A stretch of 64,000 nt of DNA. It comes from Pukyongia sp. GTDB lineage: Bacteria; Bacteroidota; Bacteroidia; Flavobacteriales; Flavobacteriaceae. Under the pieces are notes generated by a model. It ran no database searches, was not told where the DNA came from, and saw nothing but the letters and a program-made list of their open reading frames with translations. Shown piece by piece: positions 33,010-54,757 of this stretch. Every line of letters begins with the position of its first letter. The stretch's first letter is position 1. The translations under genes and the position numbers were made by a program. Where the stretch lies: assembly GCA_030148705.1 (NCBI GenBank), contig JASBSY010000014.1, positions 496,001 through 560,000 of the forward strand, written 5' to 3'.

Positions 33010-34767
33010 CTATTGGTTCTCTATATTCAGCTTTAAATGTAGTTCTTTTAGTTGTGATTCGTCGATTTTGGCCGGGGCGTCGATCATTACGTCCCTGCCT
33101 GCATTGTTTTTCGGAAACGCGATAAAATCCCTTATTGTTTCCTGTCCGCCGAGTATAGCTACCAGTCGGTCCAGGCCAAAGGCGATCCCGCCGTGAGGAG
33201 GTGCTCCGTATTCGAAAGCATCCATAAGGAATCCAAACTGGGCTTTAGCTTCTTCTTTACTGAAGCCGAGGTAATCGAACATTTTCGCCTGTACTTTTTT
33301 GTCGTAAATCCGTATGGATCCACCACCGATCTCATTGCCGTTCAGCACTAAATCGTAGGCATTGGCTTTTACGGCTCCGGGATTGGATTCGAGTAGTTCC
33401 AGCTGTCCGGGTTTTGGGGAGGTAAAAGGGTGGTGCATGGCGTGGTATCGCGATGTTTCTTCGTCCCATTCCAACAGGGGAAAGTCGGTTACCCAAAGCG
33501 GAGCAAATTCGTCGGCTTTTCTCAGGCCAAGTTCCTGGGCAAGGTGCATTCTAAGGGCACTCAATTGAGTGCGTGTTTTATGTACGTCTCCTGAAAGCAC
33601 ACAGATAAGGTCCCCGGGCTTGGCGTTGGTTTTTTCTGCCCACCTAGCCAAGTCCTGCTGATCGTAGAATTTATCGACCGAAGATTTGTAGGACCCGTCT
33701 TCGTTACAGCGCACATAGACCATCCCCATGGCTCCTATCTGGGGGCGTTTCACCCAGTCGATCAGGGCATCTATCTCCTTACGGGAATATGTATTTCCGT
33801 TAGGAACAGCAATTCCCACCACGAGTTCGGCGCTGTTAAATACATTAAAATCTTTGTGCTGAGCCACCTCATTCAGTTCACCGAACTCCATCCCGAATCG
33901 TATGTCCGGTTTGTCATTTCCGTATCGCCGCATGGCTTCGTCGTAGGTCATTCTTGGGAAATCGGTTACGGTAACTCCGTTTATTTCTTCGAGCAGGTGC
34001 CTGGTAAGACCTTCAAACATTTGCAGTATATCCTCCTGTTCCACAAAAGCCATCTCGCAGTCGATCTGGGTAAACTCGGGTTGCCTGTCGGCTCTAAGGT
34101 CTTCGTCTCTGAAACACTTTACAATTTGAAAATATTTGTCCATCCCGCCTACCATTAGCAATTGCTTAAAGGTTTGGGGCGATTGGGGCAGGGCGTAGAA
34201 TTGACCTTCGTTCATTCGTGAAGGAACCACAAAATCCCTGGCACCTTCGGGGGTGGATTTAATAAGGTATGGGGTTTCCACTTCCACAAAATCTTTCTCG
34301 GAAAGATAATTTCGCACTGCCATGGTAACCTTGTGGCGAAACACCAAATTCTGGCGTACGGGTTTTCTGCGTATATCGAGATATCGGTATTTCATACGGA
34401 GGTCTTCCCCGCCATCGGTTTCATTTTCTATGGTAAAAGGAGGTGTGAGCGACTCATTAAGAATTTGAAGATCTGAGACTAGAATTTCAATATCGCCTGT
34501 GGGCATGGCCGGATTCTTCGATTCGCGTTCAATTACCTGACCGGTGACTTGAATTACGTATTCACGGCCAAGGCTTGCAGCAATTTCCATGACCTCAGGA
34601 GATGTGCGTTCTTCATCAAATATCAATTGGGTAATACCGTATCGGTCGCGCAGGTCGACCCAGATCATAAATCCTTTATTACGGGTTTTTTGTACCCAAC
34701 CGGCTAAAGTAACCGTCTTATTGACGTGTTCAATGCGTAGTTCTCCGTTTGTATGCGTTCTGTACAT
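33010..34767 (-). CDS. aspS: Aspartyl-tRNA synthetase
   Basis: A 585-residue class IIb synthetase of bacterial size. The N-terminal OB-fold anticodon domain (1-105) contains [22 protein letters not shown]. Motif 2 is [25 protein letters not shown] insertion domain runs about 290-410. Motif 3 is [16 protein letters not shown] near the C-terminus. It charges tRNA-Asp. Monocistronic, from the promoter at 34791-34798 with a leader of about 20 bases. Confidence 0.96.
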
Positions 34768-51841: not shown

Positions 51842-51870
51842 ATAAAGCCCGGTTGATGCCGGGCTTTATT
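51842..51870 (+). terminator. Intrinsic terminator of sucAB
   Basis: A perfect 11-bp stem (51842-51852 with 51859-51869) over a 6-base loop, ending CTTTATT; its symmetry could also stop minus-strand transcripts. Confidence 0.82.
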
Positions 51871-51900
51871 GGTTAGTTAGTCAAATCTTAACGGACTTTT

Positions 51901-52032
51901 TTATGAAACGAAATAGTTTATAATATTCAGTAATATAACTGTCACTATACAAACTGCAAGTGCAATTACGAATACTCTCTGAACTACGCTCTTATTATGC
52001 TTATCTTTTTTAGATATCATAAGACCTTTCAT
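51901..52032 (-). CDS. Predicted 43-residue single-helix membrane microprotein
   Basis: A minus-strand ATG (52030-52032) opens 43 codons and a TAA. The N-terminus is basic (MKGLMISKKDKHNKSVVQRV), followed by one hydrophobic helix of about 22 residues (FVIALAVCIVTVILLNIINYFV), the layout of a membrane-anchored small protein with its N-terminus inside. It lies 75 bases after the response regulator on the same strand, with a perfect 16-bp palindrome in the gap. No homology is claimed. Read-through peptide or chance ORF are alternatives, but the charge and hydrophobicity pattern favours a gene. Confidence 0.5.
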   Translation of the reverse strand: MKGLMISKKDKHNKSVVQRVFVIALAVCIVTVILLNIINYFVS

Positions 52033-52067
52033 GTAGTAAAATTCAGAAAGTTTTCTCTAATCTGAAA

Positions 52068-52083
52068 TACGTGTTAACACGTA
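52068..52083. promoter_or_regulatory. Perfect 16-bp palindrome between response regulator and microprotein
   Basis: TACGTGTTAACACGTA is a perfect dyad, 36 bases before the microprotein ATG. A dimeric NarL-type response regulator is a natural candidate ligand, and one is encoded next door. Confidence 0.45.
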
Positions 52084-52106
52084 AATTCTTTTATAACAGG
52101 GCCTTA

Positions 52107-52739
52107 TTACTGCAATTTATCGTGATGTTCCTTGGCCCAGCTGAGTAAACTGTTGGTTTTTGGCTCCAGATTTAGCTTGTGGATAATATTGGAGCGGTGC
52201 TTTTCAACAGTTCGATATGAAATAAAAAGAAGGGAGGCAATTTCCTTATTGGTCTTGTTACGGGCAATTAGCTTTAAAATTTTCTTTTCGGAAGGTGTAA
52301 GAACATTCAAGGCTTCGTCGTCTGCGGCGTTTACGTTCAGCATATCGGTAATTTTCTGACTGAAATAGGGTTCGCCCTGTGAAACTGTATCAATACAGTT
52401 CTCTATTTCCTCTATGGCAAATTCCTTTAAGATATACCCAAAGATATTTAGTTCCTGAGCCTTGTTATACAACTCTTTTTCCTTGTGAAGGGTAATGAGA
52501 ACGATTTTAGTGTGCAGGCCGTTAGTCTTACATTTTTTCGCAATCTCGAGTCCGGACATAAACGGCATCTGTATATCGAGGATGGCAATATCCGGCTTTA
52601 ATTTGGTGATTAGGTTATACGCCTCCCTGCCCGTAGAACCACTCCCTACGATATTGTATTTCTTTTCAATGAGGAAGTCGTTTAATCCTTTAAGGAGTAA
52701 CGGGTGATCATCGGCTGTTATAATAGACTGGTGTCTCAC
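52107..52739 (-). CDS. NarL/LuxR family response regulator
   Basis: A 210-residue two-domain regulator. The receiver has Asp10-Asp11 and the phosphoacceptor Asp55 (AILDIQMP), and the conserved Lys in ITLHKEKE. The C-terminal LuxR helix-turn-helix (about 145-205) reads LTPSEKKILKLIARNKTNKEIASLLFISYRTVEKHRSNI. Its start overlaps the kinase stop by four bases, so the pair is co-translated. Target genes are unknown; the palindrome just downstream is a candidate site. Confidence 0.94.
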   Translation of the reverse strand: MRHQSIITADDHPLLLKGLNDFLIEKKYNIVGSGSTGREAYNLITKLKPDIAILDIQMPFMSGLEIAKKCKTNGLHTKIVLITLHKEKELYNKAQELNIFGYILKEFAIEEIENCIDTVSQGEPYFSQKITDMLNVNAADDEALNVLTPSEKKILKLIARNKTNKEIASLLFISYRTVEKHRSNIIHKLNLEPKTNSLLSWAKEHHDKLQ

Positions 52740-54757
52740 GAGATTGGAAATTGAAATTGAAGCGTAGTACCAATGTTTGCAATCGATTCCACTTTCATAT
52801 TGCCATTTAAAAATTTTGTCCGTTCCAGAAGCGTCTTAAGCCCCAGAGACTTTACACTCTGAAATTTTTCAGGAAAATCGAACCCAACCCCATTGTCCTT
52901 GACAGAGATTACTACAATATTAGTTAATTTTTTCACAGATACCTTGCTGGCTTCAGCTTTTGCATGTTTGAGTACATTACTTAGGCTTTCCTGGACAATT
53001 CTGTAAATATTCACTTCAGCTTCTTTGTTAAAAATATTATCGATATTATCGATTTCAGATGAAATAAATAATGAGGTATTCTCGTCGATCTGGGTGATGG
53101 TATACTCCAGGGCTTTGGTAATACCCATTTCCTGAAGCTGAAACGGGTGAAGATCGCGCGAAATAGTCCTTACTTCCTCAATGGATTCATCCACCATATT
53201 CCGGGTTTCTGCATCGCCGGAGGCAATTAATTTATTCTTTATAACCAACAACCGCTGCCCCAGGCCATCGTGCAGGTCTTTGGAGATCCGCATCCGTTCC
53301 TCTTCCTGGGAGACAATTAATTTCTGACTGAATTTTTCCTGAAGGATCTTTTTGTTTTTGAAATAGAGTTGATTCCGGTATAAGAGGATCACCCCAAAAA
53401 ACAGCAAAAGTGCAACTCCACCAAAGATCAAAAGGTTGCGGAACGTCTGATTGTCCTTCTCGAGAAGTTGAATGCTGGTGTTCTTTTCAACCAGGTCTCT
53501 TTCGGTTTTTTCGGTTTCATACAGGGTTTGGTAATAAGCCAGAGAAATTGCCACTTCCCGGTTGTAAATGGAGTCCTTGAGCGTTGAATAACTCAATTCA
53601 TGCTCCATTGCTTCCTTGTACTCTTTCTGGGCCGAATAGATTTCCGAAAGCATTTTGTGCGATGCCAGAATATTCTCCTCGTACTTCAGGATTAGTGCAT
53701 ATTTAAGTCGTTGCTTGGCGTATTGCAATGCAATATCATAGTTGCCTACCGTATAATTGTACCTGGCATTCGCCCCTAAAAACTGGCATACTGTAATAAG
53801 GTCGCCCGTGGAATCCCTGTTGTATTCGTTTATAAGTTTCAGGTATTTTTCGGCTGCCGTGAGATTCCCCTGCTCGCAGTAATAATCTACAAGTTCGGTA
53901 TAAATATACAGGGCATTGGAGGTCTTTTCTTTTTTATCTATGGATTCGGACAAGGCCGATTCGGCCTTCATAAGAAATTCCAGGTATTTTTCCTTATTAC
54001 CTATTTTCTCGTAATCCAGGGCCTGATTATAGTATTCGGTTGGAAGATGGTGCAGAAGTCCAAGTTCCAGAATGTTCGCAATATTCTTTTGCCGTTCTGT
54101 CATCGCTTTTTCGTGAAAACCATTCATGCTGAACATGGTGGTAATTCCCTGTTGCGCGTAGAACATATATTCATAATCTTTCAGGGCTTCGAAATAATCG
54201 TAAGCTTTCCGGTAACTTTCACCCGCCGGGACGAATTTACCCATATTCGAATATGCCTGTCCGCTGAACAAATAAGCGTCTGCTACATACAGAGAATCCT
54301 CGTCCGAAAAGTTAGCAATGGCCAGCTTATAATCCTCGATTGCATCGTTGAGGTTTAACTTGTTATTGGACATTCCTCTTTTCAGATAGAGTCCCCCCAG
54401 AAGGTAACTGCTGGTGATCTTGTATTTCCTGGCCAGGATACCGTCTATAATGGTCAATGCTTTACGCGGATCATTTTTCAGCACACTCAGGCTGTGATGG
54501 ACCCGAATCATTTTTCGCGCAGCGGCATTTATGCTGTCGAGTTCCTTTGCGAATTCAATATATTCCAGGCTGTATTTAACGAAAGAGTCGAGGTCGAGCT
54601 TGGAAGCCTTGCTTACCACAGAATCCATTGCTACTAATCGTTCTCCGTCTGTTGAAGCAGTTTGAGCTAATTTCTTATAAAAAGTAATATCCTGCGCCCA
54701 CCCGAAAAAAGGAAGTGTTAAGATTAGAATGACTATGATTCTGGTCACGACCAACAT
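52736..54757 (-). CDS. TPR sensor histidine kinase (HisKA_3)
   Basis: A 673-residue membrane kinase. An N-terminal signal peptide or anchor (1-21) leads into a large tetratricopeptide-repeat sensor region (about 40-410). One transmembrane helix follows at about 440-460 (LLIFGGVALLLFFGVILLY). The HisKA_3 dimerisation helix has the phosphorylated His496 in KDLHDGLGQR. The ATPase domain has the N box ESLSNVLKHA and DNGVGFD (Asp621). No input ligand is known for this family; the TPR part is periplasmic by prediction. It forms an operon with the response regulator. Confidence 0.93.
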   Translation of the reverse strand: MLVVTRIIVILILTLPFFGWAQDITFYKKLAQTASTDGERLVAMDSVVSKASKLDLDSFVKYSLEYIEFAKELDSINAAARKMIRVHHSLSVLKNDPRKALTIIDGILARKYKITSSYLLGGLYLKRGMSNNKLNLNDAIEDYKLAIANFSDEDSLYVADAYLFSGQAYSNMGKFVPAGESYRKAYDYFEALKDYEYMFYAQQGITTMFSMNGFHEKAMTERQKNIANILELGLLHHLPTEYYNQALDYEKIGNKEKYLEFLMKAESALSESIDKKEKTSNALYIYTELVDYYCEQGNLTAAEKYLKLINEYNRDSTGDLITVCQFLGANARYNYTVGNYDIALQYAKQRLKYALILKYEENILASHKMLSEIYSAQKEYKEAMEHELSYSTLKDSIYNREVAISLAYYQTLYETEKTERDLVEKNTSIQLLEKDNQTFRNLLIFGGVALLLFFGVILLYRNQLYFKNKKILQEKFSQKLIVSQEEERMRISKDLHDGLGQRLLVIKNKLIASGDAETRNMVDESIEEVRTISRDLHPFQLQEMGITKALEYTITQIDENTSLFISSEIDNIDNIFNKEAEVNIYRIVQESLSNVLKHAKAEASKVSVKKLTNIVVISVKDNGVGFDFPEKFQSVKSLGLKTLLERTKFLNGNMKVESIANIGTTLQFQFPIS

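Follow-up and report, generated by a model that had tools for sequence, protein, structure and literature searches.

The window considered here is the whole analysed stretch of Pukyongia sp. DNA, 64,000 nucleotides in length, and it contains a two-component system that is followed on the same strand by a short palindrome and a small open reading frame (ORF). The features of the locus are as follows:

51842..51869, no strand: terminator hairpin common to the microprotein ORF and the convergent odhB, an 11-bp perfect inverted repeat
51901..52032, minus strand: microprotein ORF of 43 aa with an ATG start, predicted single-pass membrane protein
52032, minus strand: predicted transcription start of a leaderless mRNA, coinciding with the A of the ATG at box+51 and derived from the position of the -7 element
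52037..52044, minus strand: GAATTTTA, a weak match to the -7 promoter consensus TAnnTTTG, at a fixed distance from the box
52068..52083, no strand: regulator box TACGT-N6-ACGTA, TACGTGTTAACACGTA, a full palindrome and the putative binding site of the adjacent NarL-type regulator
52107..52739, minus strand: NarL/FixJ-type response regulator, receiver and GerE domains (PF00072, 7.7e-24; PF00196, 8.5e-15)
52736..54757, minus strand: TPR sensor kinase with a hydrophobic signal-like start, a TPR region, a hydrophobic stretch at about residues 440-460, HisKA_3 and HATPase_c

With PF00072 and PF00196 above cut-off in the regulator, and PF07730 and PF02518 above cut-off in the kinase (the TPR models of Pfam stay below theirs), the pair belongs to the NarL/FixJ-type two-component systems, partner kinase included. 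A kinase motif lies 5' of the regulator in 68 of the 73 testable loci. The first-pass annotation had described a perfect 16-bp palindrome beside this system, between the regulator and a minus-strand ORF of 43 residues with a basic N-terminus and one hydrophobic stretch, and both features are found at these positions. The gap from the ORF start to the regulator stop codon measures 74 bases, and the near edge of the palindrome stands 35 bases before the ATG. The encoded microprotein reaches a 19-residue hydropathy of 3.14 at residues 20-38, giving a small protein with a single predicted transmembrane helix, and has no Pfam match above cut-off and no NCBIfam match. Judged by eye, the terminator hairpin holds the same position in congeners. 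Beside it, at 51870-51882, lies TGGTTAGTTAGTC, and a CTAACTAACC-like element is likewise placed in congeners.

Within the window TACGTGTTAACACGTA occurs in a single copy, even when up to 3 mismatches are allowed. The perfection of its symmetry, which had been taken as remarkable in itself, is not, as first-order Markov simulation yields 1.35 perfect 16-bp palindromes per window and at least one in 43 of 60 simulated windows. Indeed, a second such palindrome, GCACTCAATTGAGTGC, is present at 33557-33572 within a 585-codon ORF and serves as a chance control; by eye, this ORF resembles an aspartyl-tRNA synthetase. A perfect dyad by itself is thus weak evidence, given the expected frequency and the second copy inside a coding ORF.

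Conservation is more informative. Orthologues of the regulator are 89-92% identical in six congeners and 50-78% identical in 13 more genomes that were aligned, and the 16-mer is identical after the regulator stop codon in all six congeners, while other genera carry variants of TACGT-N6-ACGTA after the regulator, some with one mismatch. A scan of named genomes covered 532 relatives, of which the best 80 were retained (Aureitalea, Ulvibacter, Altibacter, Aequorivita and Marixanthomonas among them), a sample that for this reason leans towards close relatives. TACGT-N6-ACGTA is exact in 64 of the 80 regulator loci; with the window added and one mismatch at most, the box is present in 71 of 81 loci and lacking in 10. 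Only 13 of the 64 exact boxes are palindromic across all 16 bases, so that the middle six bases need no symmetry. In the genome from which the window comes, the scan that had been suggested for the palindrome returned one exact copy and three copies with 2 mismatches, and all three keep TACGT-N6-ACGTA. The conservation among relatives on which the first-pass annotation had made its proposal depend is therefore found for the palindrome. In two Aequorivita loci (L121 and L131, from A. xiaoshiensis and A. sinensis), the regulator is kept and both the box and the microprotein ORF are absent, which argues that the microprotein is dispensable there.

The small ORF is tied to the box by a fixed distance. 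In 59 of the 71 boxed loci, a reading frame 30 codons long or more begins precisely 51 nt from the start of the box; of the 12 without it, several have a small ORF further downstream. Frames at neighbouring offsets are rarer (nine each at 50 and 53 nt, none at 49 and 52 nt). A profile built from the 59 microproteins was searched against 1341 ORFs of 31 loci, nearly all from other genera, and ranks 1-22 (E 3.8e-15 to 0.16) were small ORFs near the regulator, found across genera; the top match came from the training clade and the next had an E of 6.1e-6, and further regulator-adjacent small ORFs fell among the noise (E 0.25 to 5.7). The microproteins listed share a charged start and one hydrophobic stretch, and the consensus has an Asn near the end of this stretch. 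Among same-length microprotein ORFs of 70-98% nucleotide identity, pN fell below pS in 82 of 84 pairs, and pooling 15 independent pairs gave a pN/pS of 0.225. The 43-codon ORF, whose presence beside orthologous regulators the first-pass annotation had proposed to search for, is thus, by its substitution pattern, a conserved gene under purifying selection.

The same spacing bears on the promoter. In flavobacteria the TAnnTTTG element is described as sitting at -12 to -5 (PMC9723704). In the window, TTTR stands at box+43 to +46, and the same register is seen at sRNA-2 (see below) and at some curlin promoters; from the position of the element, transcription would start at box+51, on the first base of the ATG. 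The microprotein mRNA is accordingly predicted to be leaderless, with the box centred at -43.5. The suggestion that the palindrome stands where an activator site would be expected is supported by this comparison, and an activator-like spacing makes sense precisely because the mRNA is predicted to lack a leader. The weak match of GAATTTTA to the -7 element is what is expected of an activated promoter, though it also counts as a point against the model. In 24 of the 59 frames, codons 2-15 hold no further ATG, GTG or TTG, and in these the first codon is the likely start. The start codons comprise 45 ATG, seven GTG and seven other codons (3 CTG and 4 others), and such non-ATG codons are unusual for leaderless starts; in F. 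psychrophilum leaderless mRNAs are put at only 5.5% (PMC9723704).

The combined pattern, box+27+TTTR, was searched in 299 genomes of the family alongside a reversed-pattern control, and gave 321 matches in 114 genomes against 28 in 26 genomes for the control. It is present in 99 of the 122 genomes with the regulator and in 15 of the 177 without it, corresponding to 2.49 and 0.096 matches per genome, respectively, whereas the reversed control gave 0.082 and 0.102; the rate without the regulator equals that of the control. Fisher's test returned an odds ratio of 46 (p 9e-40), a value that ignores shared ancestry. Presence of the regulator was defined here by a profile E <= 1e-75, a cut-off picked after the match list had been seen; with the looser E <= 1e-40, the pattern is present in 105 of 147 genomes against 9 of 152. 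Among the 23 of 122 regulator genomes that lack the exact pattern, three (G015, G023, G025) have a box with one mismatch or a shift of one base. Several further sites may be recorded on their own account. One of those in the genome of the window precedes a secreted-looking protein of 161 residues and a VWA protein, and in another genome (L202, G261) the protein downstream of the box carries a Vap-type domain (PF05526, E 4e-24). At L215-L223 (G258, G159, G136) box-like promoters lie before orphan genes, several with a repeated leader resembling a cassette or mobile promoter, and these may be unrelated to the regulon.

Among the box-preceded sequences is a structured RNA, sRNA-2, which was first met behind boxes in 12 copies. 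Searched by its own letters, it was found in 22 of 299 genomes, belonging to 16 genera, and all 22 loci have the box in front, exact in 20 and with one mismatch in 2. Ten of them had served to define the RNA, having been reached through the box; the other 12 had no part in that definition. TTTG begins at box+43 in 20 of the loci and one base earlier in 2. When 24 sequences were folded singly, the closing helix was recovered in 23 and both helix P2 and the GGGG-loop hairpin in 24, with a mean z of -3.3. P2 has 23 different sequences among the 24, close relatives included, and was left free by the search pattern, which did prescribe the hairpin and, in the closing helix, one of the two strands. 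RNAalifold, applied to 12 sequences, returned the closing helix and the hairpin and no P2, with most double changes falling in the terminator. The genome of the window has one copy of sRNA-2 (L003, L254).

Loci of other genera in which the box is not immediately followed by the microprotein carry, behind the box, units of about 60-70 nt that frequently form tandem arrays. These units (sRNA-1) number 47 and occur in 24 of 31 loci; of the remaining seven, four are not oriented by the regulator motif and three are oriented and show no unit under the rule applied. Among 41 of the 47 units that were folded, the common form joins an unpaired GCUAUUAAU to a hairpin whose loop contains AGGG and to a terminator; several units lack this form. 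Most of these loci also contain a small microprotein-like ORF. In the clade of the window the search for sRNA-1 gave no match in 14 of 15 genomes and one 3-mismatch match in G018. Rfam 15 gave nothing above the gathering score in 25 loci that included copies of sRNA-1 and sRNA-2, and permissive thresholds returned sub-gathering matches only. More candidate small RNAs, short hairpins behind a box whose loops are G-rich (GGGGAG, GAGGAG), were noticed at L199 (minus strand) and L206 (plus strand), near an ORF that by eye is ruvB-like.

The box also precedes curli genes. In the draft genome of the window, the regulator lies on contig C2 and a complete csg operon on contig C5, with the box in front; PF07012, PF10627, PF10614 and PF03783 are all above cut-off, placing curlin repeats, CsgE, CsgF and CsgG together. 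The -7 element of this box promoter stands 291 nt before the ATG of the curlin gene. Among 30 hand-picked genomes of the clade CsgF is present in 26, and 24 of these could be examined upstream, two (G004, G230) being too near contig ends. Counting a box as exact, or as having one mismatch with TTTR in register, it precedes a curlin-like gene in 17 of the 24 CsgF-bearing genomes and, after exclusion of the four first met through the box (G000, G107, G119, G130), in 13 of 20. These 13 comprise 2 exact boxes with TTTR in register, 6 exact boxes with TTGA or TTGT, and 5 boxes with one mismatch and TTTR. A recognised box is absent at 7 of the 24 curlin loci, two of them in stretches that reach the contig end. 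In one genome (G092) three tandem curlin genes each have an exact box before them.

Pairing between sRNA-2 and the curlin leaders was evaluated at two scales. Whole-length duplex energies are mixed (mean z -0.76 for 16 leaders of 14 genomes, with -2.15 to -3.73 in five leaders and +2.08 in one) and were set aside as support. For the loop of sRNA-2, the mean longest complement in 19 leaders of 17 genomes is 6.11 against 5.38 after shuffling, with 0 of 60 shuffle sets as high; the reversed loop, as a control, gave 4.95 (60 of 60 sets as high), and with the 3' segment of sRNA-2 the leaders did not exceed the shuffled sets (17 of 60 as high). UAUCCCC is found in 6 of the 19 leaders against 0.2 expected. 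As the leaders share descent and the loop was picked after they had been viewed, this complementarity is a lead only, and an action of sRNA-2 on the curlin leader via its GGGGAUA loop is possible but rather doubtful. As a separate observation, CUCCUC is present in 12 of the 19 leaders (L197, L200, L204, L312, L323, L325 and others) against 0.6 expected from shuffles.

The box, the microprotein gene, their spacing and the gene set are conserved. Binding by the regulator, activation and a leaderless start and translation are what we infer from these patterns. The best explanation, which we regard as probable, is that the regulator binds the adjacent palindrome as its operator and activates a regulon of curli, small RNA and microprotein genes. 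According to this model, a phosphorylated dimer of the regulator would bind TACGT-N6-ACGTA centred at -43.5 and activate a weak sigma-A type promoter starting on the first base of the microprotein ATG, and the leaderless mRNA would encode a protein of 43 residues that spans the membrane once. With a spacing that is unchanged or almost so, this box would also place sRNA-2 under the regulator, together with the curli operon (curlin, CsgE, CsgF, CsgG), which has a long 5' leader. The kinase-regulator pair would thus act as a curli and biofilm switch among bacteria that are described as devoid of CsgD. Of the original proposal, the box as a promoter element tied to the regulator, the conserved ORF and the activator spacing find support in the comparison; the perfect dyad as evidence does not, and the leaderless mRNA, the small RNA and the curli sites had been missed.

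Different readings of the same data have to be weighed against this model. The box could be the site of another factor, either a paralogue of 43-48% identity or an unlinked one, with the adjacent pair as a mere neighbour or another target. Paralogous regulators do adjoin TACGT-N6-ACGTA boxes in two genomes (G034:C4:281334, 44%; G035:C3:280533, 43%), and G223 and G315 (L245, L252) have sRNA-2 with its box, in G315 with one mismatch, and yet no regulator match at E 1e-40. However, box presence follows the class of the regulator orthologue (99/122 versus 15/177), and the genome of the window has box sites even though no close paralogue is among the matches listed (the next has E 4.9e-19 and 25% identity), which makes this reading improbable. 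A slightly lower probability still is given to the possibility that the ORF owes its expression to transcription running on from the kinase and regulator genes, with the box serving autoregulation or repression instead of activating the microprotein. The ORF does follow at 74 nt on the same strand, no terminator was noticed by eye in between, and repression is also conceivable where an operator and a promoter overlap; yet read-through leaves the 51-nt distance from the box to the start codon unexplained, and free-standing sRNA-2 genes have the same distance between box and -7 element, as do curlin genes exactly or nearly. That a chance palindrome happens to lie next to a random ORF agrees with how common perfect 16-bp palindromes are, but is contradicted by conservation, spacing, purifying selection and the common gene set, and its likelihood is negligible.

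The role of the microprotein is a separate matter. Feedback on the kinase from within the membrane is a candidate role for it and the least supported step of the model, to which we give appreciably less than an even chance. It may make no contact with the kinase, aiding the envelope during curli export or acting on another membrane protein, a reading that falls somewhat short of being probable: it accords with the box common to microprotein and curli operons and with the absence of the microprotein from L121 and L131 despite the regulator, but in the loci read the microprotein is encoded beside the regulator and not beside csg. Returning to activation of the regulon by the adjacent pair, its parts can be joined into one tentative picture, somewhat short of being probable, in which the pair would be the missing curli master switch of Flavobacteriaceae and would command, through one box at one promoter distance, a feed-forward loop made of a leaderless feedback microprotein, an sRNA-2 whose G-rich loop pairs with C-rich sites of the long curlin leader, and the amyloid operon. 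With the same reserve, this loop would stand in for both CsgD and Gac/Rsm in bacteria without CsrA.

Curli regulation beyond proteobacteria is an open question, and the comparison provides a specific candidate: a regulator with its putative binding site, the register of the promoter and the genes concerned. In marine flavobacteria, where the curli regulator is missing, the pair may fill this place. To these are added a conserved microprotein family, a structured small RNA family without an Rfam 15 match and a second, tandem small RNA family, in a phylum whose small RNA networks are little known. In the literature, where sequences and themes were searched and subscription journals lay mostly outside, no earlier description of the system was among the matches listed.

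Several known systems resemble parts of this one. MgrB and SafA are small proteins of the membrane through which sensor kinases receive feedback; the likeness lies in a single-pass microprotein under the control of a regulator, a control that is predicted here, while the microprotein of the window has, as noted, no family match and its contact with the kinase is a candidate feature. In Enterobacteria, small RNAs take part in the control of curli by CsgD, and CsgD is likewise a regulator of the LuxR/FixJ family standing before curli genes. In contrast, the regulator described here is a two-component one, unlinked to csg and with its own TPR kinase, and it scores 52.7 bits against the CsgD equivalog model, whose cut-off is 250. 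According to one account, Bacteroidetes genera lack csgD except Spirosoma and possibly use other pathways (PMC3521004). The GacS/GacA-RsmX/Y/Z system is similar in its NarL-type regulator and in its several copies of small RNAs with G-rich hairpin loops. The Gac upstream palindrome has its own letters and a six-base centre, and the letters of the box differ from it. In the GacA system, this palindromic sequence is described as lying upstream of the small RNA genes (PMC2375449). Against the GacA equivalog model the regulator scores 88.3 bits (cut-off 280), and CsrA (PF02599) is above cut-off in none of 40 genomes, that of the window included, with one sub-threshold match in G051. A Gac/Rsm reading is weakened by this result, as titration of CsrA is unlikely there, and another RNA-binding protein is possible. 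The system would thus work like a CsgD or GacA regulon while being, by models, CsrA and linkage, a member of neither. As for the small RNAs, Rfp18 of Flavobacterium psychrophilum is, by its description, a flavobacterial structured small RNA with conservation beyond the species (PMC9723704), traits that sRNA-2 shares. The FopS/GibS small RNAs of Bacteroides thetaiotaomicron, described together with RbpB, have copies that act on polysaccharide utilisation genes, and their activator is called unknown in that source (PMC11697453). Compared by description, they resemble the small RNAs described here as multicopy paralogous small RNAs of Bacteroidota, and differ from the present system in that here the box co-occurs with a two-component regulator.
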